Assembly (NCBI GenBank): GCA_001304015.1 | Contig: LJUY01000058.1 | Span: forward strand, 1-16,715 | Length of the DNA: 16,715 bases | Source: a candidate division Zixibacteria bacterium SM23_81 | GTDB lineage: Bacteria; SM23-81 | Direction: 5' to 3' | Shown: positions 3,154 through 16,036 of the stretch, piece by piece | Numbering within the stretch: position 1 is the first letter of the stretch | Layout: each line of letters starts with the position of its first letter | The notes under the pieces: model-generated | The model's input: only the letters and a program-made list of their open reading frames with translations | Database searches by the model: none | What the model was told of the DNA's origin: nothing | Position numbers and translations under genes: made by a program

Positions 3154-4059
3154 GTGATCACAGGAACAATATTTGATATAAAGAAGTTCTCCCTTCATGA
3201 TGGCCCCGGCATTCGCACCACCGTCTTTTTTAAGGGCTGTGACATGCGATGCCGATGGTGCCATAATCCGGAGAGCCACCGGCTAGAACCCGAACTGATG
3301 TTTCGTCCTGACCGGTGTATCGGCTGCCAGTCGTGCCTGACGGTCTGCACACAGAAAGCCATCTCTCTCAACGACGATGTCATCACTCACCAGAAGGAAA
3401 AGTGTATCCAATGCGGCCGCTGCGCGGATGTGTGCAACGCTCAGGCCAGGGAGATGGTCGGCCGGGAATCGACCGTAGAAGAGGTTATGACTGAGATTGA
3501 AAAAGATCTGCCTTTTTACGTCCAATCCGGCGGCGGAGTTACTTTCTCGGGCGGAGAACCTCTGCTGCAAAAGGATTTTTTATCCGCCCTTCTTCACAGC
3601 TGCAAAGCAAGAGGCATTCACACTGCCGTAGACACTTGCGGATACGCGGATTGGAAGGACATCGATAGCATTCGGAACCAAACCGATCTCTTTCTCTACG
3701 ATCTCAAGCTGGTCGACGACGTCCTTCACAGAAAGCACACGGGCGTTACCAACAAGAATATTCTTCGGAACTTACAAAAGCTTTCCGACGGAGGACAGGA
3801 TATCATTATCCGCGTTCCCATCGTTCCCGGAATAACCGACACAAAGGAGAACATACATCACATCGGTGAGCTTACCATGAGATTATCCCATCTTCGCCGC
3901 CTGGACATTTTGCCCTATTTTCATATTGCCGCCGAAAAGTACCAGCGGCTTCACCGGGTCTACGACTTAACCGAAACACGTCCTCCCAGCGCCGAAAGAA
4001 TGTCTCAGATCGCCGACCTGCTGCGGGATTTTGGCCTGAAAGTGCACATTGGGGGCTAA
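3154..4059 (+). CDS. hypE: Glycyl radical enzyme activase (radical SAM), partner of HypD
   Basis: A 301-residue radical-SAM activating enzyme that should install the glycyl radical on the dehydratase encoded next. The SAM [4Fe-4S] motif is C29-x3-C33-x2-C36. Two ferredoxin-type clusters follow, C55-x2-C58-x2-C61-x3-C65 and C84-x2-C87-x2-C90-x3-C94, the insert typical of activases of dehydratase-type glycyl radical enzymes and absent from PflA. The SAM-binding GGEP is at 133-136. The start is GTG at 3154, supported by AGAAGG at 3141-3146. The TAA ends four bases before the dehydratase ATG, and that gene's GGGGG ribosome site lies inside the last codons here, so the two are probably translated together. 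The C. difficile name HypE is unrelated to hydrogenase maturation HypE. Specificity for HypD is inferred from adjacency. Confidence 0.92.
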   Translation: MITGTIFDIKKFSLHDGPGIRTTVFFKGCDMRCRWCHNPESHRLEPELMFRPDRCIGCQSCLTVCTQKAISLNDDVITHQKEKCIQCGRCADVCNAQAREMVGRESTVEEVMTEIEKDLPFYVQSGGGVTFSGGEPLLQKDFLSALLHSCKARGIHTAVDTCGYADWKDIDSIRNQTDLFLYDLKLVDDVLHRKHTGVTNKNILRNLQKLSDGGQDIIIRVPIVPGITDTKENIHHIGELTMRLSHLRRLDILPYFHIAAEKYQRLHRVYDLTETRPPSAERMSQIADLLRDFGLKVHIGG

Positions 4060-4063
4060 TATC

Positions 4064-6445
4064 ATGGCAATGAGCGAGAGAGTGGCCCAATTGAGACAGC
4101 AGAGCCTGTCAGCGGTCCCGAGCATATCCTCAGAACGAGCAGAGCTGCTCACGGATTTCTACCAGCAAGATCTGGGCTCCATGTCCACCCCCATGGTCCG
4201 AGCCAGGGCCTTTGAGCACCTAATGGACAGCAAGACGATCTGTATCAACCAGGGAGAGCTCATCGTCGGGGAAAAGGGCCCCGCCCCAAAAGCCACCCCG
4301 ACCTATCCAGAGCTCTGCTGTCATACCCTTGAAGACCTCGATATACTCAACTCCCGCGAGAAGATATCCTTCGCCGTCAGTTCAAAGGTCCGCCAGACCT
4401 ACCAGCGAAGGGTAATCCCCTTCTGGCGGGGAAAGACCATGCGTGAAAGCATCTTCGACAAGATGACCGGGGAGTGGATGGATGCCTATGAAGCCGGCGT
4501 GTTCACCGAGTTCATGGAGCAGCGTTCGCCTGGTCACACCGTTCTGGACGATAAGATCTACCGCAAGGGATTTCTGGACTTCAAAGAAGACATCCAGCGC
4601 AGCCTGGATCGGCTCAATGTCCAGAATGATCCCCAGGCCCAGGGCCAACTGGAACAGCTCAGGGCCATGGAGATTTGTGCCAATGCCCTGATCCGCTTCG
4701 CCCACCGTCATGCTGAAAAGGCCCGCGCGCTGGCCCAAGTGGAAGCCAACCCGGAAAGAAAAGAGGAGCTAGCGCGCATAGCCGATATCTGCGATCACGT
4801 CCCCGCTCACCCTCCCCGGAACTTTTGGGAGGCGTTGCAGTACTATTGGTTCGTCCATCTGGGAGTCACCACAGAGCTCAATCCTTGGGACGCCTTTTGC
4901 CCGGGCAAACTCGACCAGCATCTCTATCCCTTCTACCGTCGTGAGCTGGAGGAAGGAACGCTGACCCGGGATGGGGCCGAGGAGCTGCTGCAGTGCCTGT
5001 GGGTGAAGTTCAACAACCAGCCGGCGCCGCCGAAGGTCGGTGTAACAGCGGCGGAGAGCAGCACCTACACCGATTTCGCCCAGATCAACACCGGTGGCCT
5101 CAAGGAAGATGGATCCGATGCCGTCAATGAGGTTACTTATCTGATCCTGGACGTCATCGAGCAGATGCGGCTGCCGCAGCCCAGCTCATCCATCCAGGTC
5201 AGCAAGGAGAGTCCCGATAGATTCATCAAGAGAGCGGCCGAGATCATCCGCACCGGCTTCGGCCAGCCCTCGGTGTTCAACTCCGACCTGGTGGTGCAGG
5301 AGCTGCTGCGGCAGGGGAAATCCCTGCTCGACGCGCGCAATGGGGGCACCAGCGGCTGTGTGGAAACCGGCGCTTTCGGCAAGGAGAACTACAACCTCTC
5401 GGGGTATTTCAATATGCCCAAGGTTCTCGAGATCACCCTGAATAACGGCATCGATCCCCGGACGAAGCGCCGCATCGGGCTGCAGACCGGGGACCCAGCC
5501 CGGTTCGAGACCTTTGAGCAGCTGCTGGAGGCCTATGAAACTCAGCTCAACCATTTCGTCAACATCAAGATCCAGGGCAACAACGTCATCGAGAGATTGT
5601 ACGCCACCCACATGCCTGCACCCTTCCTCTCGCTGCTCATCGACGACTGCATTGCAACGGGTAAAGATTACCATCAGGGTGGGGCCAGATACAACACTAC
5701 CTACATTCAGGGTGTCGGCTTGGGAACCATCACCGACGCCATGACGGCCATCAAGTATGCCGTCTTTGACAAAAAGATCCTCTCCATGAAAGAACTACTC
5801 AAAACTCTGAAAGCTGATTTTGCCGGGGACGAGAAGACGCGCCAGATGTTGTTGAACAGAACGCCAAAGTACGGCAACGACGACGACTATGCCGATGACG
5901 TCATGGTTTCACTGTTCGAGGCATATTTCTGCGCCATTGACGGCCGCAAGAATACCCGGGGCGGAGAGTACCACATCAACCTGTTGCCCACCACGGTTCA
6001 CGTGTACTTTGGATCGGTCATTGGCGCGACACCCGATGGACGAAAATCGGGTCAACCTCTCTCGGAAGGCATTTCGCCTGTGCAGGGCGCAGACCGGCGG
6101 GGGCCAACGGCCGTCCTCAAGTCGGCATCCAAAATGGATCATATCCGTACCGGCGGCACGCTGTTGAATCAGAAGTTCACACCCCAGCTGCTTCAAGACG
6201 ACGCCAGCCTGGACAAGCTGGTCCATCTGATACGGACCTATTTCAGGTTAGACGGGCATCATGTTCAGTTCAATGTAGTGGACGCGGCCACCCTGCGAGC
6301 CGCCCAAAAGAATCCCGAAAAGTATCGGGATCTCATTGTCCGAGTGGCGGGCTACAGCGATTATTTCTGTGATTTGGGCACAGCGCTTCAAGATGAGATC
6401 ATCTCGCGGACGGAGCATACGGTCTTTGGTTCAGCTCAATTTTGA
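4064..6445 (+). CDS. hypD: Glycyl radical dehydratase, probable trans-4-hydroxy-L-proline dehydratase
   Basis: A 793-residue glycyl radical enzyme. The thiyl-radical cysteine lies in G-C432-V-E434-T-G and the glycyl site in R-V-A-G763-Y-S-D. By my recall, C. difficile HypD uses C434, E436 and G765, plus H160, D278, S334, D339, F340, Y450 and T645. The equivalents here are present: H158, D276, ESS-TYTDF near 331-338, Y448 and T643, with a constant offset of two at each position I counted. Long blocks such as FTEFMEQR, FNNQPAPPKVG and TPKYGNDDDYAD also fit that family, so dehydration of trans-4-hydroxy-L-proline to pyrroline-5-carboxylate is the best call. The ATG at 4064 is chosen for its GGGGG site at 4051-4055 and the offset; an in-frame TTG at 4049 is unlikely. 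Cytoplasmic and O2-sensitive. A related hydroxy-amino-acid dehydratase cannot be excluded. Confidence 0.9.
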   Translation: MAMSERVAQLRQQSLSAVPSISSERAELLTDFYQQDLGSMSTPMVRARAFEHLMDSKTICINQGELIVGEKGPAPKATPTYPELCCHTLEDLDILNSREKISFAVSSKVRQTYQRRVIPFWRGKTMRESIFDKMTGEWMDAYEAGVFTEFMEQRSPGHTVLDDKIYRKGFLDFKEDIQRSLDRLNVQNDPQAQGQLEQLRAMEICANALIRFAHRHAEKARALAQVEANPERKEELARIADICDHVPAHPPRNFWEALQYYWFVHLGVTTELNPWDAFCPGKLDQHLYPFYRRELEEGTLTRDGAEELLQCLWVKFNNQPAPPKVGVTAAESSTYTDFAQINTGGLKEDGSDAVNEVTYLILDVIEQMRLPQPSSSIQVSKESPDRFIKRAAEIIRTGFGQPSVFNSDLVVQELLRQGKSLLDARNGGTSGCVETGAFGKENYNLSGYFNMPKVLEITLNNGIDPRTKRRIGLQTGDPARFETFEQLLEAYETQLNHFVNIKIQGNNVIERLYATHMPAPFLSLLIDDCIATGKDYHQGGARYNTTYIQGVGLGTITDAMTAIKYAVFDKKILSMKELLKTLKADFAGDEKTRQMLLNRTPKYGNDDDYADDVMVSLFEAYFCAIDGRKNTRGGEYHINLLPTTVHVYFGSVIGATPDGRKSGQPLSEGISPVQGADRRGPTAVLKSASKMDHIRTGGTLLNQKFTPQLLQDDASLDKLVHLIRTYFRLDGHHVQFNVVDAATLRAAQKNPEKYRDLIVRVAGYSDYFCDLGTALQDEIISRTEHTVFGSAQF

Positions 6446-11030: not shown

Positions 11031-12098
11031 ATGAAATTCCTACACGCCGCGGATCTGCATCTGCAGACGGCTGCTGCCGCAGAACAGCTTGACGCCCTGA
11101 AGCTCATCCTCCGGCTGGCGGATGAAAATAACGCCGAATTCCTTCTCTTCGCAGGCGATCTCTTCGACAGCGATCATGACGCCGATCGTATCCGCCCCCA
11201 GGTGCGTGAGGTTCTGACCTCCTGGGACAAACCGACCGTCCTGGTTCCTGGTAACCACGATGCCTCCAGCTACAGTACGACAGCCGACTACGGAGAGCAC
11301 GCTCTGGCGGCTAGAGAGGACATCCACGTCTTCGAGAAGCTGGGTGAGTTCCCTCTTGTTTGCCTACCCTACCAGGAGAAACGCGCCTTTGCCGACTGCC
11401 GGGAGGGCTTGGCACATCTCAAGGGGCCTCTGGTGGTGTGCTGCCATGGCACCCTCTATCTCGAGCAATGGCTGGGCTGGTTGCGGGAGGAAAAAGAAGA
11501 CGTGGGCGATTACTTCCCCGTCTATCCCGAGGACCTCAAAGGCCTGTCCATAGGCTACCTGGCCATGGGCCATTTCCACAAGGGCTTCTCTCAGACCACC
11601 TCCCCCGTAACCTGCTGCTATCCAGGCTCGGCTTTCCCGGTGACGGCCAGGGAGCTGGGCCCCCGCTCCGTGGCTTTGGTCCACCTGAACGGTGAGGGAT
11701 CAGCTCAGGTTATTCCGCTCAACCTCAAAGGCGTCCCATGGTACCAGGAGGTTTCGCTGAAATCCTTGCCCTGGCGTGAAGATGAGATGTTTGCAGAACT
11801 GGAGCAGCATCTGAAGAACCTGGATCCTCAAGCCCGTCCCGTGGTCTCCGTCACGGGCTATGCTCAGGACGAGCGGGGACTGAGAGAACGGTTGGAGAGG
11901 AGGCTCAAAGGCCTAGGAGGGCCGCAGCCCAAAATTGAGTTGTTTGACTACAGCCGCCTGATGGAAAACACCTTCTACCGGATGTTCGTAGAGGAGATCG
12001 AGATAGAAAAGGCCGACCAGCAAGAAAAAGCCATCTCTGAGAAAGCTCTGGAGATCATCACCCATGGTTTTTCCCGACTGCAAAAGAGGAGCCGATGA
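11031..12098 (+). CDS. Mre11/SbcD/YhaO-type DNA exonuclease subunit
   Basis: A 355-residue calcineurin-like metallophosphoesterase. The two-metal motifs are in order: D8-L-H10, G42-D43-L-F-D46, G74-N75-H76-D77, C-C-H139-G, and G180-H181-F-H183. This is the Mre11/SbcD set and all ligands are present. Residues after about 245 form a small capping region and a helical tail (EEIEIEKADQQEKAISEKALEI, 22 residues, split here as EEIEIEKADQ and QEKAISEKALEI) that probably binds the base of the partner ATPase coiled coil. It should be an ATP-regulated 3'-5' exonuclease and endonuclease acting on DNA ends or hairpins. GAGG at 11021-11024 supports the start. The last four bases overlap the ATPase start (ATGA). 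The short length and the membrane-anchored partner point to YhaO rather than SbcD. Confidence 0.92.
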   Translation: MKFLHAADLHLQTAAAAEQLDALKLILRLADENNAEFLLFAGDLFDSDHDADRIRPQVREVLTSWDKPTVLVPGNHDASSYSTTADYGEHALAAREDIHVFEKLGEFPLVCLPYQEKRAFADCREGLAHLKGPLVVCCHGTLYLEQWLGWLREEKEDVGDYFPVYPEDLKGLSIGYLAMGHFHKGFSQTTSPVTCCYPGSAFPVTARELGPRSVALVHLNGEGSAQVIPLNLKGVPWYQEVSLKSLPWREDEMFAELEQHLKNLDPQARPVVSVTGYAQDERGLRERLERRLKGLGGPQPKIELFDYSRLMENTFYRMFVEEIEIEKADQQEKAISEKALEIITHGFSRLQKRSR

Positions 12099-14326
12099 AT
12101 CTCAAGAGCCTCACCATGGAAAAGTTCGGCCTCTTCCGGAACCGGAAGCTGGAGTTCTGTCCTGGCTTCAACCTGATCTTCGGCCCCAACGAGTCGGGCA
12201 AGACCACTCTGTTGGACGCCATCGTATTGGCTCTGCTATCCCGCACCGACAAGAAGGGCGCTAAGCTAAAGGGCTACCCCCGGGCTCTGAAGCCCATCAG
12301 AGACCGGTACGGCTCGGAGATCTCCCTACAAATGGTGGTAGAGCATGACGCTCAGGAGCTAATTTTCCCGGCCGCGGAAAGCTTCCATGACCTCTGGGGG
12401 GTGGGCTGGGACGAGCTGCGAGCCATCTTCATCGCCCGGGAGGGAGACCTGGAGCTGGCCAAGAGGGAAACTTTTCCGAAGTGGTGGAATACCCTAAAGG
12501 GCAAGCTTTTGGGGTTCGAGGAAGAGCCCAAGCGGGTTCTGAAAAAGATCGCAGAGGAGGCGGGTTTGACAGACAATCTTGCCCTCACCATGGTCCAGAG
12601 GGAGTATAGAGAGGACATTCAGAAGAAATTGACCTGGTATGAAGTTAACAAGGAAAGAATTCATTCTCTACGAAGGTTGAAAAAAGACTACCAGGGTCTC
12701 AAGCTCAAAGAGGAAGAGCTAGCCCGAGAAGCGGACAAAAAGAAGAAAGGGATTCTCAAGACCAGGCTCCTTCGAGCTAACGTTATCTATAGCCAACTGA
12801 AATCAGCAACGGAGAAGTTGAGGGAAGAATTCGCTCGCTACGATGAACAGGACTTGAAAGAATGGGAGAGACTGGAGCGGGAACTCGAGAAGGAGCTGGC
12901 CCTGCTGGAGCGGCTGCTCCTACAGAAGCGTCAAGAAGAGGAGCGGCACAAGCAGGCCGTGAAGGATGTGGCCCAGATGACCCACCATCTGACAGCTATG
13001 ATGGAGAAGTTGCGTTTGGTAGACGATAGGGAGGTGGAACTGACCGCGGCGGTTCATCTAGAGGAAAAAGATTCCTCTCGCGGCATCCCCCACTGGATAC
13101 CATGGGCACTCTGGGCGTGTGCTATCCTGGCCCTCATCTTTGGCTTATATTCGACGCCGCTGCTTTTCATCCTCTGCGGCATTTTGGTAGTTACAGCCCT
13201 CTCCTTCACCTACAAACTTCGCAAAGCTGCTGCAGAGGAAACATTACTAAATCGCCAGCGGCAAAAGTTTCTCCGCTGGGCTCGAGATCTAGATCTGAAG
13301 GCGGAGTCGTTGACAGACCTCCTGCTGAAACTGATGGACCTGCGTAGAAACAAGGACCGACTAGAGGGCCAGCGCAACCAGCTTCAGGATCAGCTGCCCA
13401 AACTGGCCGATACAGCTGGGGAGGTCGCTAAGCTAAAGAGGTCAAAAGAAGATGCCGTGGAAAAGATCCGTGGCAAGATTCGCCAATTGCGGGACAAGGT
13501 GGGATTGAGTGATCTGGAACAACTGCGCCAGCGCGTTCAGAGCAAGAAAGAGCTGCAAAGCGATGTCGAGAAAAGGTACAAGAGCGAACTGAGAGCTCTT
13601 TTGGATTCCAAAGAGGCCTCTTGGGCCGGACAGTTGGAGGAGCTGAAATCTATGGAGGATGTGCCGCCTGTGGAGGACAACAGCCAGGTTGAAAAAATCA
13701 CCCGGGGCTTGGAGAATCTCCGCAGAGAGCAGCAGGGCAAGTACGAGCAACTGACCCAATTGAACGCCGAGATTAAGGCACATTTTGGTGTTCAAACCCC
13801 CGAGGAAGTCATCTGGAAGGTGGAAGACCTGCAGAGAGAACTGCAGGAGATGAAAATTCTCAAACAGGCTGGTCAGAAGGTTCATCAGATCTTCGACCGG
13901 TTGCTACAGCGATCCGACACCGTTCTGGACGATATAATCGGCGGAAAGACGGTCTGCGCCGGCTTCCAGCAGGTCACCGGTGACAAGTACCAGGCGGTGA
14001 CCATGGAAGATCTGGTCCTACGGGCTACCGACGCTCAGGGGAAGACGTGGGATTTTCAAGACCTGAGCACGGGTACCAGAGACCAGCTTCTCACCGTATT
14101 GCGCCTGGCCCTGGCGGAGAAGCGCCTTCAGGGTAAGGGATTCCTTATCTTTGATGACGCTCTGGTGACCAGCGATCGAACCAGGCTCAGGGAGCAGATG
14201 GAGATGCTGGGGCAGCTCACTCAGGCTGGCTGGCAAATTCTGTTCATGACCGCGCAGGACGAAGTACGACAGGAAGCCGAGCGACTTGCCGGATTGGAGA
14301 TGGAAGTGAGGATTGTGGATTTATAA
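12095..14326 (+). CDS. Rad50/YhaN-like SMC-family ATPase with a central membrane hairpin
   Basis: A 743-residue ABC-type ATPase split by coiled coils. Walker A is G30-P-N-E-S-G-K36-T37-T38. The signature is L657-S658-T-G660-T-R-D-Q-L. Walker B is F-L-I-F-D687-D688-A-L, with T-S-D as D-loop. Two charged coiled-coil arms, about 185-325 and 375-590, flank an unusual centre. Residues about 335-373 hold two hydrophobic stretches (WIPWALWACAILALIFGLY and LLFILCGILVVTALSF) joined by S-T-P. No CxxC zinc hook is present; a short membrane hairpin takes its place, as I recall for B. subtilis YhaN. The protein is shorter than SbcC (about 1050) or YhaN (about 960). Q-loop Gln appears as E116 in I-A-R-E-G-D, and the catalytic Glu as D688. 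AGGAG precedes the ATG, which overlaps the nuclease stop. Confidence 0.9.
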   Translation: MNLKSLTMEKFGLFRNRKLEFCPGFNLIFGPNESGKTTLLDAIVLALLSRTDKKGAKLKGYPRALKPIRDRYGSEISLQMVVEHDAQELIFPAAESFHDLWGVGWDELRAIFIAREGDLELAKRETFPKWWNTLKGKLLGFEEEPKRVLKKIAEEAGLTDNLALTMVQREYREDIQKKLTWYEVNKERIHSLRRLKKDYQGLKLKEEELAREADKKKKGILKTRLLRANVIYSQLKSATEKLREEFARYDEQDLKEWERLERELEKELALLERLLLQKRQEEERHKQAVKDVAQMTHHLTAMMEKLRLVDDREVELTAAVHLEEKDSSRGIPHWIPWALWACAILALIFGLYSTPLLFILCGILVVTALSFTYKLRKAAAEETLLNRQRQKFLRWARDLDLKAESLTDLLLKLMDLRRNKDRLEGQRNQLQDQLPKLADTAGEVAKLKRSKEDAVEKIRGKIRQLRDKVGLSDLEQLRQRVQSKKELQSDVEKRYKSELRALLDSKEASWAGQLEELKSMEDVPPVEDNSQVEKITRGLENLRREQQGKYEQLTQLNAEIKAHFGVQTPEEVIWKVEDLQRELQEMKILKQAGQKVHQIFDRLLQRSDTVLDDIIGGKTVCAGFQQVTGDKYQAVTMEDLVLRATDAQGKTWDFQDLSTGTRDQLLTVLRLALAEKRLQGKGFLIFDDALVTSDRTRLREQMEMLGQLTQAGWQILFMTAQDEVRQEAERLAGLEMEVRIVDL

Positions 14327-14389: not shown

Positions 14390-16036
14390 ATGAAAGTAAC
14401 CATGGCCCAGCTAAATCCAGTCGTTGGCGATGTGGAGGGGAACATGGCGCAAGTGGTGGATACCCTCCGGAAGTGCTCCGGCGATGCTCCGGATCTGGTG
14501 ATCTTCCCAGAGCTTTTCCTGATGGGATACCCGCCTCGTGATCTCCTGGAGCGCCGGTGGTTCGTAGAAAAAAGCCAGCGGGCAATACAAGAGCTCCGGG
14601 GTATCTCCCAAACCTATCCGGAGACGGGAATACTGCTGGGAACTGCCATTCCCACTGGGGAGGGCACGGGCAAGGGTCTATACAACTCCGCTCTGCTCAT
14701 CTACCGGGGTCAGGTTTTATTTCGCCAAAACAAATCTCTCCTGCCCAGCTATGACGTCTTCGATGAGTCCAGATACTTTGATCCCGCCCCCAAAATTGAG
14801 GTTTTCCCCTTCAAAAACGAGGTCTTGGGTATCTCCATCTGCGAAGACGCATGGAATGACCCAGAGTTCTGGCCCAGGAGAACCTATCCCCTGGACCCCA
14901 TCGCGATACTGGCGAAAAAAGGGGCCACCCTTTTGGTGAACATCTCAGCATCTCCTTTCCACGTGGGCAAGGAGGAAATCCGCCACCGCCTCCTGGGCAA
15001 TCATGCTCGAAAACACGCGCTGCCGGTTGTTTTCGTCAACCAAATTGGGGCCAATGATGAGCTGATCTTCGATGGACGGAGCCTGTTCGTGAATTCGCGC
15101 GGAGATGCCGTGCTGGCATTTCCTCCCTTCAATGAACACCTCCAGACCATCGAGACAACTTCCGGCGAGGCTCTCGAGCAGTACACCCCCCAAGAACGAG
15201 TGGAATCCGTTCACCAGGCTCTGGTCCTGGGCATCCGGGATTACGCTCGAAAGTGCAGCTTCTCAAAGGTCACCCTGGGACTTTCCGGCGGCATTGACTC
15301 CTCCTTGACGTGTTGTCTGGCTCGTGCGGCTCTGGGTGGTGAAAACGTCCTGGGCGTCTCCATGCCTTCCCCTTATTCCTCCCAGGGAAGCGTCGAGGAC
15401 TCCCGGAAGCTGGCCCAAAACCTAGGCGTTCAGTTTCGGGTTATCCCCATCTCCGATATATACGCCACCTATCTGGCATCCCTGAAGGAGCATTTTAAGA
15501 GAAAAGAATCCGACGTGACCGAGGAAAACATTCAGGCCCGAATCCGGGGCAATCTGCTCATGGCGCTGTCCAACAAATTCGGCTATCTGGTTCTGTCTTC
15601 GGGGAACAAGAGCGAGGTGGCCGTGGGCTATTGCACCCTCTATGGAGATATGAGCGGCGGCCTGAGCGTCCTATCAGATGTGCCCAAGACCATGGTATAC
15701 GAGTTAGCCCGCTACGTGAACCGTGCCGGTGAGGTCATCCCCAAACAGATTATCGAGAAACCTCCCTCTGCGGAGCTAAAGCCCGATCAGCGAGACCAGG
15801 ACACACTGCCACCGTACGAGGTTCTCGACCCTATCCTTCGCCTCTATGTGGACGACGGGCGCTCCGCCAAAGAGATCATCGATCACGGCTTCGAGCCCGA
15901 GGTGGTCACATGGGTCATCCGAGCCGTGGATAGAAATGAGTACAAGCGCCGGCAGGCAGCCCCTGGCCTGAAGGTGACCTCAAAGGCCTTCGGCATGGGC
16001 CGGAGAATGCCAATAGCGGCGAAGTACAACTCGTAG
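14390..16036 (+). CDS. nadE: Glutamine-hydrolysing NAD+ synthase
   Basis: A 548-residue two-domain enzyme of full length. It makes NAD+ from deamido-NAD+, ATP and glutamine. Residues 1 to about 260 are the nitrilase-like glutaminase, with triad E41 (F-P-E), K115 (N-K-S-L-L-P) and C151 (I-C-E-D-A-W). Residues about 270-548 are the ammonia-dependent synthetase: the PP-loop S299-G-G-I-D-S, then SSGNKSEVAVGYCTLYGDMSG (split: SSGNKSEVAVG and YCTLYGDMSG), K-P-P-S-A-E-L at the binding site, and a C-terminal G-R-R-M-P-I-A. The call is firm. AGGAG at 14375-14379, ten bases before the ATG, supports the start. It lies 63 bases after the Rad50-like ATPase and may be cotranscribed without functional linkage. 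The TAG stop is the first bases of a repeat palindrome. Confidence 0.97.
   Translation: MKVTMAQLNPVVGDVEGNMAQVVDTLRKCSGDAPDLVIFPELFLMGYPPRDLLERRWFVEKSQRAIQELRGISQTYPETGILLGTAIPTGEGTGKGLYNSALLIYRGQVLFRQNKSLLPSYDVFDESRYFDPAPKIEVFPFKNEVLGISICEDAWNDPEFWPRRTYPLDPIAILAKKGATLLVNISASPFHVGKEEIRHRLLGNHARKHALPVVFVNQIGANDELIFDGRSLFVNSRGDAVLAFPPFNEHLQTIETTSGEALEQYTPQERVESVHQALVLGIRDYARKCSFSKVTLGLSGGIDSSLTCCLARAALGGENVLGVSMPSPYSSQGSVEDSRKLAQNLGVQFRVIPISDIYATYLASLKEHFKRKESDVTEENIQARIRGNLLMALSNKFGYLVLSSGNKSEVAVGYCTLYGDMSGGLSVLSDVPKTMVYELARYVNRAGEVIPKQIIEKPPSAELKPDQRDQDTLPPYEVLDPILRLYVDDGRSAKEIIDHGFEPEVVTWVIRAVDRNEYKRRQAAPGLKVTSKAFGMGRRMPIAAKYNS

Follow-up and report, generated by a model that had tools for sequence, protein, structure and literature searches.

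We analysed a 16,715-nucleotide stretch of DNA (the window) from the candidate division Zixibacteria bacterium SM23_81, in which two overlapping genes on the forward strand occupy positions 11031..12098 and 12095..14326. The first encodes a 355-aa Mre11/SbcD/YhaO-like metallophosphatase (Pfam Metallophos, E 9.7e-14; AlphaFold; Foldseek) and the second a 743-aa Rad50/YhaN-like ABC ATPase with a predicted membrane hairpin at the apex of its coils. The ATG start codon of the ATPase gene overlaps the stop codon of the nuclease gene (ATGA), 4 bp being common to both. Downstream, at 14390, an open reading frame has carbon-nitrogen hydrolase/NAD-synthase-like sequence, and the downstream frame of a sister locus matched CN_hydrolase in a Pfam search. 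Unlike the yhaONM operon of Bacilli, the window carries no HD-domain YhaM gene downstream of the pair. Elsewhere in the window, two adjoining and similar small membrane proteins of ~207-212 aa, apparently paralogues, are encoded on the minus strand at 89-1361, and a pair at 3154-6445 resembles a pyruvate formate-lyase-like glycyl radical enzyme together with a radical-SAM glycyl-radical activating enzyme.

The ATPase was modelled with AlphaFold (mean pLDDT 82, 62-row alignment). The model shows an ABC head built from both ends of the protein and two long helical arms at residues 192-326 and 406-615, roughly the coiled-coil lengths proposed in an earlier note on this DNA. The head is of the Rad50 type, as that note had suggested: VIA-align superposed it on Rad50 3auy with a Z-score of 23.7 (rmsd 4.8, 309 residues aligned) and on SbcCD 6s85 with a Z-score of 20.6. 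In Walker A (GPNESGKTT, residues 30-38, 12182..12208), G30, N32, G35 and K36 show no variation among 62 relatives. The ABC signature (LSTGTRDQ, residues 657-664, 14063..14086) has S658, G660 and Q664 invariant, L657 conserved in 61/62 and D663 in 60/62. Walker B and the D-loop (FLIFDDALVTSD, residues 683-694, 14141..14176) lie near the C-terminus, where the Walker B core reads FLIFDDALV. The catalytic glutamate that follows the Walker-B aspartate in the hook-type Rad50 controls is absent: D687 and D688 are invariant, position 688 being Asp in 62/62 relatives, and the replacement of Glu by Asp suggests slow ATP turnover. The Asp-Asp pair also occurs in most hairpin-bearing YhaN-like proteins examined, with Asp-Glu in two exceptions (L155 and L157). 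The window ATPase matches Pfam AAA_27 (PF13514) at 40.2 bits against a curated cut-off of 22; two distant members of the compact family, L099 and L089, have no AAA_27 match listed at E 1e-5.

The Mre11–Rad50 machine is central to the handling of broken DNA, and its zinc hook counts as a defining dimerisation module. The ATPase of the window has instead, at the apex of its arms, a hydrophobic helical hairpin at residues 330-377 (13082..13225), and a motif search found no CxxC anywhere in its 743 residues. The replacement of the hook by such a hairpin, first proposed in the earlier note, is thus a real and conserved feature; the segment had been placed at 337-373, correctly located but slightly narrow. 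In the AlphaFold model it forms two helices (334-350 and 356-398) where the arms end. Within it, a run of 40 residues (WIPWALWACAILALIFGLYSTPLLFILCGILVVTALSFTY) is free of D, E, H, K and R, the 19-residue Kyte-Doolittle maximum reaches 2.31 compared with 0.74 elsewhere in the protein, and its 44-residue hydropathy mean was reached in only 2/5000 shuffles of the ATPase. The octanol scale of Wimley and White gives -13.8 and -10.8 for its two 19-residue segments. Insertion of the hairpin into the membrane is strongly predicted.

This architecture is widespread. A search of 145 sampled genomes recovered relatives ~20-25% identical with the same pair and hairpin, and screening 84,980 species genomes yielded 80 loci. 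Among these are loci of Zixiibacteriota (59% identical), the window's own family; the phyla represented also include Bacillota, Thermotogota, Spirochaetota, Calditrichota, Aminicenantes, WOR-3 and Chloroflexota as well as haloarchaea, with the proviso that single phylum labels may be wrong because many of the loci are metagenome assemblies. The hairpin was found mid-protein in 77 of the 78 extracted frames, the exception being a 413-aa fragment, and none of the 78 has an apical CxxC (two have a CxxC elsewhere). Across the family, the best octanol-scale segment has a median of -13.1 in the hairpin versus -1.3 outside it. Two adjacent favourable 19-residue segments were called in 67/78 proteins; in the other 11 the automatic two-helix rule failed since the second-best segment was weaker or located elsewhere. 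In the 67 proteins scored, the 24 hairpin-flanking residues hold 5.4 K/R against 2.4 D/E and the turn ~0.5 charges. By the positive-inside rule, such K/R-rich flanks and a nearly uncharged turn would place the heads in the cytoplasm.

A soluble role for the apex must be weighed against these data. The hairpin sits exactly where Rad50 has its zinc hook and SMC proteins their hinge, both dimerisation modules (PMC6969161); the predicted hairpins of two or four protomers might bundle into a soluble dimerisation device that replaces the hook away from any membrane. We consider this unlikely. The hairpin keeps its hydrophobicity while its sequence drifts, being retained in 77/77 sufficiently complete relatives at ~20% identity. 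This drift fits lipid rather than a specific soluble core, as do ~40 residues lacking any charge or histidine, segment energies of -14 and -11 on the octanol scale, and a K/R bias flanking an uncharged turn.

The partner gene was also recognised in the earlier note, and its position is conserved: the nuclease gene lies immediately upstream of the ATPase gene in 69/78 cases and in 69/69 where the upstream flank is available, the other nine ATPase frames starting within ~560 bases of a contig end. The 355-aa product has the metal site of Mre11/SbcD phosphoesterases. Indeed, its AlphaFold model (pLDDT 90) gave only Mre11/SbcD proteins as top Foldseek matches, and the residues D8, H10, D43, N75, H76, H139, H181 and H183 are invariant in 36 relatives. 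Its C-terminal end is a helical segment (314-354) that may be the counterpart of the Rad50-binding part of Mre11. A membrane hairpin joined to heads of a DNA-binding type could also serve as a structural tether of chromosome or plasmid to the membrane, with a nuclease that is regulatory or vestigial, and the slow turnover suggested by the Walker-B aspartate would suit such a role. The invariance of all eight Mre11-type metal-site residues argues instead for retained catalysis and makes a pure tether improbable.

We compared the family with its nearest known systems, Bacilli YhaN being represented by Listeria and Latilactobacillus homologues standing in for B. subtilis YhaN. Against a profile of seven YhaN-like proteins, a profile of the compact family aligned end to end (706 columns, E 2.4e-45, probability 100) and the two hairpins coincided, whereas only 115 C-terminal columns aligned with a profile of seven hook-type Rad50/SbcC proteins. 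The resemblance to longer YhaN proteins mentioned in the note is full-length homology, with 743 residues in the window ATPase versus 907 in YhaN of Bacilli and shorter arms in the compact form. YhaN/YhaO (SbcE/SbcF) of Bacilli share with the compact pair a nuclease gene directly upstream, a head with the LSxGTxxQ signature and the Walker-B Asp-Asp. The Listeria and Latilactobacillus proteins also have a mid-protein hydrophobic hairpin, as do several unnamed YhaN-like proteins, and the Latilactobacillus gene order, exonuclease–ATPase–HD, is that of yhaONM. The membrane reading of the hairpin made in the note is probably correct, although the hairpin is shared with these other proteins. With Rad50–Mre11 and SbcCD the pair shares the ABC head fold, coiled-coil arms and an Mre11-type nuclease partner; it differs in the hairpin, where Rad50/SbcC controls have a mid-protein hook, and in Walker B, which is Asp-Asp rather than Asp-Glu.

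In a head-domain tree, the compact family (support 100/98) and YhaN (99/98) formed separate clades, the compact sequences falling outside the YhaN clade; with only three usable hook sequences and long branches, the deeper order was left unsettled by this tree. The family is best filed under the YhaN/YhaO (SbcEF) kind, as a compact clade that stands deeply apart and has the invariant Walker-B Asp-Asp as its mark. The hairpin itself belongs to the known but little-studied YhaN/SbcE kind; the novelty lies in a widespread clade, compact and separate, in which this pair does not vary. Proteobacterial proteins annotated 'YhaN family protein' (1154-1161 aa, with plasmid-borne examples) resemble the compact pair in their AAA_27 head and in the annotated DNA repair exonuclease upstream. 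In two plasmid-borne examples of alpha/betaproteobacterial origin (L207:1212-4697 and L208:1407-4868), unlike the compact ATPase, both the hairpin and the hook are missing, so the YhaN kind as a whole can do without a membrane anchor. A 2.9-Mb Listeria monocytogenes record (NZ_CP030101.1, L205) is filed as a plasmid in PLSDB but, judged by its size, looks like a chromosome.

We favour, with a probability of about 0.7, the view that the two genes encode a compact, membrane-anchored complex for processing DNA ends, of Mre11–Rad50 type and more specifically of the YhaN/YhaO (SbcEF) kind. ATP binding would bring two ATPase chains together through their ABC heads, with two nuclease chains docked at the coil base in the manner of Mre11–Rad50. 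At the far end of each coil, a two-helix hairpin would take the place of the zinc hook, crossing into the cytoplasmic membrane and exposing its turn on the outer side. This arrangement would keep the heads in the cytoplasm, at a distance of perhaps 15-20 nm from the membrane, where they would hold and trim DNA ends.

What such a complex may do is borrowed from B. subtilis. SbcE (YhaN) acts in double-strand break repair and competence, according to the title of a study cited in PMC4205851, and is named as interacting with YabT, a transmembrane kinase activated by DNA (PMC4205851). In B. pumilus, yhaONM is an SOS-listed cluster that rises with SOS genes (PMC3896406). These reports on SbcE (PMC4205851) and the SOS link of yhaONM (PMC3896406) make envelope-tethered DNA-end processing the best reading, and by analogy the compact pair may serve in break repair or act on imported DNA. 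The homology is distant, and the precise function of SbcEF has been called poorly characterised (PMC6452273). Membrane-tethered DNA-end processing is thus the most likely role, with a predicted tether and a presumed nuclease activity, and the handling of broken DNA is probably tied to the cell envelope wherever the hairpin design recurs.

An anti-phage or anti-plasmid system anchored in the membrane and attacking incoming DNA, to be sought by recurrence of the pair in defence islands, was rejected as very improbable: SMC-like complexes such as Wadjet and Lamassu do act in defence (PMC10586767) and the ATPase head has weak matches to PADLOC models, but these cover mainly the shared ABC head, the flanks are varied and mostly housekeeping (among 69 neighbouring proteins PADLOC matches are single and scattered and Pfam families largely housekeeping), one clade keeps the pair in conserved housekeeping synteny, and searches of neighbours, viral contigs and plasmids found no association with defence genes or mobile DNA and no relative in the latter two.

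More tentatively, at somewhat less than even odds, the hairpin proteins may represent a widespread class, as yet without a name, of Mre11–Rad50-type complexes shared by bacteria and haloarchaea. In these, a membrane hairpin would replace the zinc hook, DNA ends would be captured and trimmed at the envelope (on imported DNA or at forks or breaks associated with the membrane), and the invariant Walker-B Asp-Asp would keep ATP turnover slow. Nothing relevant on a membrane-anchored Mre11–Rad50 complex appeared in the literature searched, which does not prove that no description exists. If this view is true, end processing in a large prokaryotic branch would be bound to the envelope by a membrane anchor that replaces the hook, and the effect of tethering could be tested by swapping the hairpin for a hook. 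The hairpin would likewise offer a concrete handle on the poorly characterised role of SbcEF (PMC6452273).

Replacement of SbcCD by the compact pair was considered and set aside. Strong family matches are carried by ~17/386 sampled genomes, and at E 1e-15 TIGR00618 matched 0/17 of these strong carriers versus 88/386 genomes overall, in a scoring with uneven sampling and two candidates per genome; yet 6/26 genomes of another set of carriers have a TIGR00618 match, so mutual exclusion with SbcCD is not established.

Some loci depart from the common arrangement. Two compact hairpin ATPases (L152 and L153, frames of 784 and 684 aa) have no recognisable Mre11-like gene in the flanking sequence analysed. 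On one contig (L179, G159:C45), a hook-type SbcC-like frame is accompanied on the opposite strand by a frame of 853 aa whose N-terminus is again Rad50-like. Finally, L155 (G081:C1:79000-86500) encodes a Rad50-like ATPase of 919 aa whose coil carries a hydrophobic hairpin midway (~403-451) and whose Walker B is Asp-Glu; it adjoins an Mre11-like gene and a HerA-like ATPase gene, and may be a further hairpin lineage.
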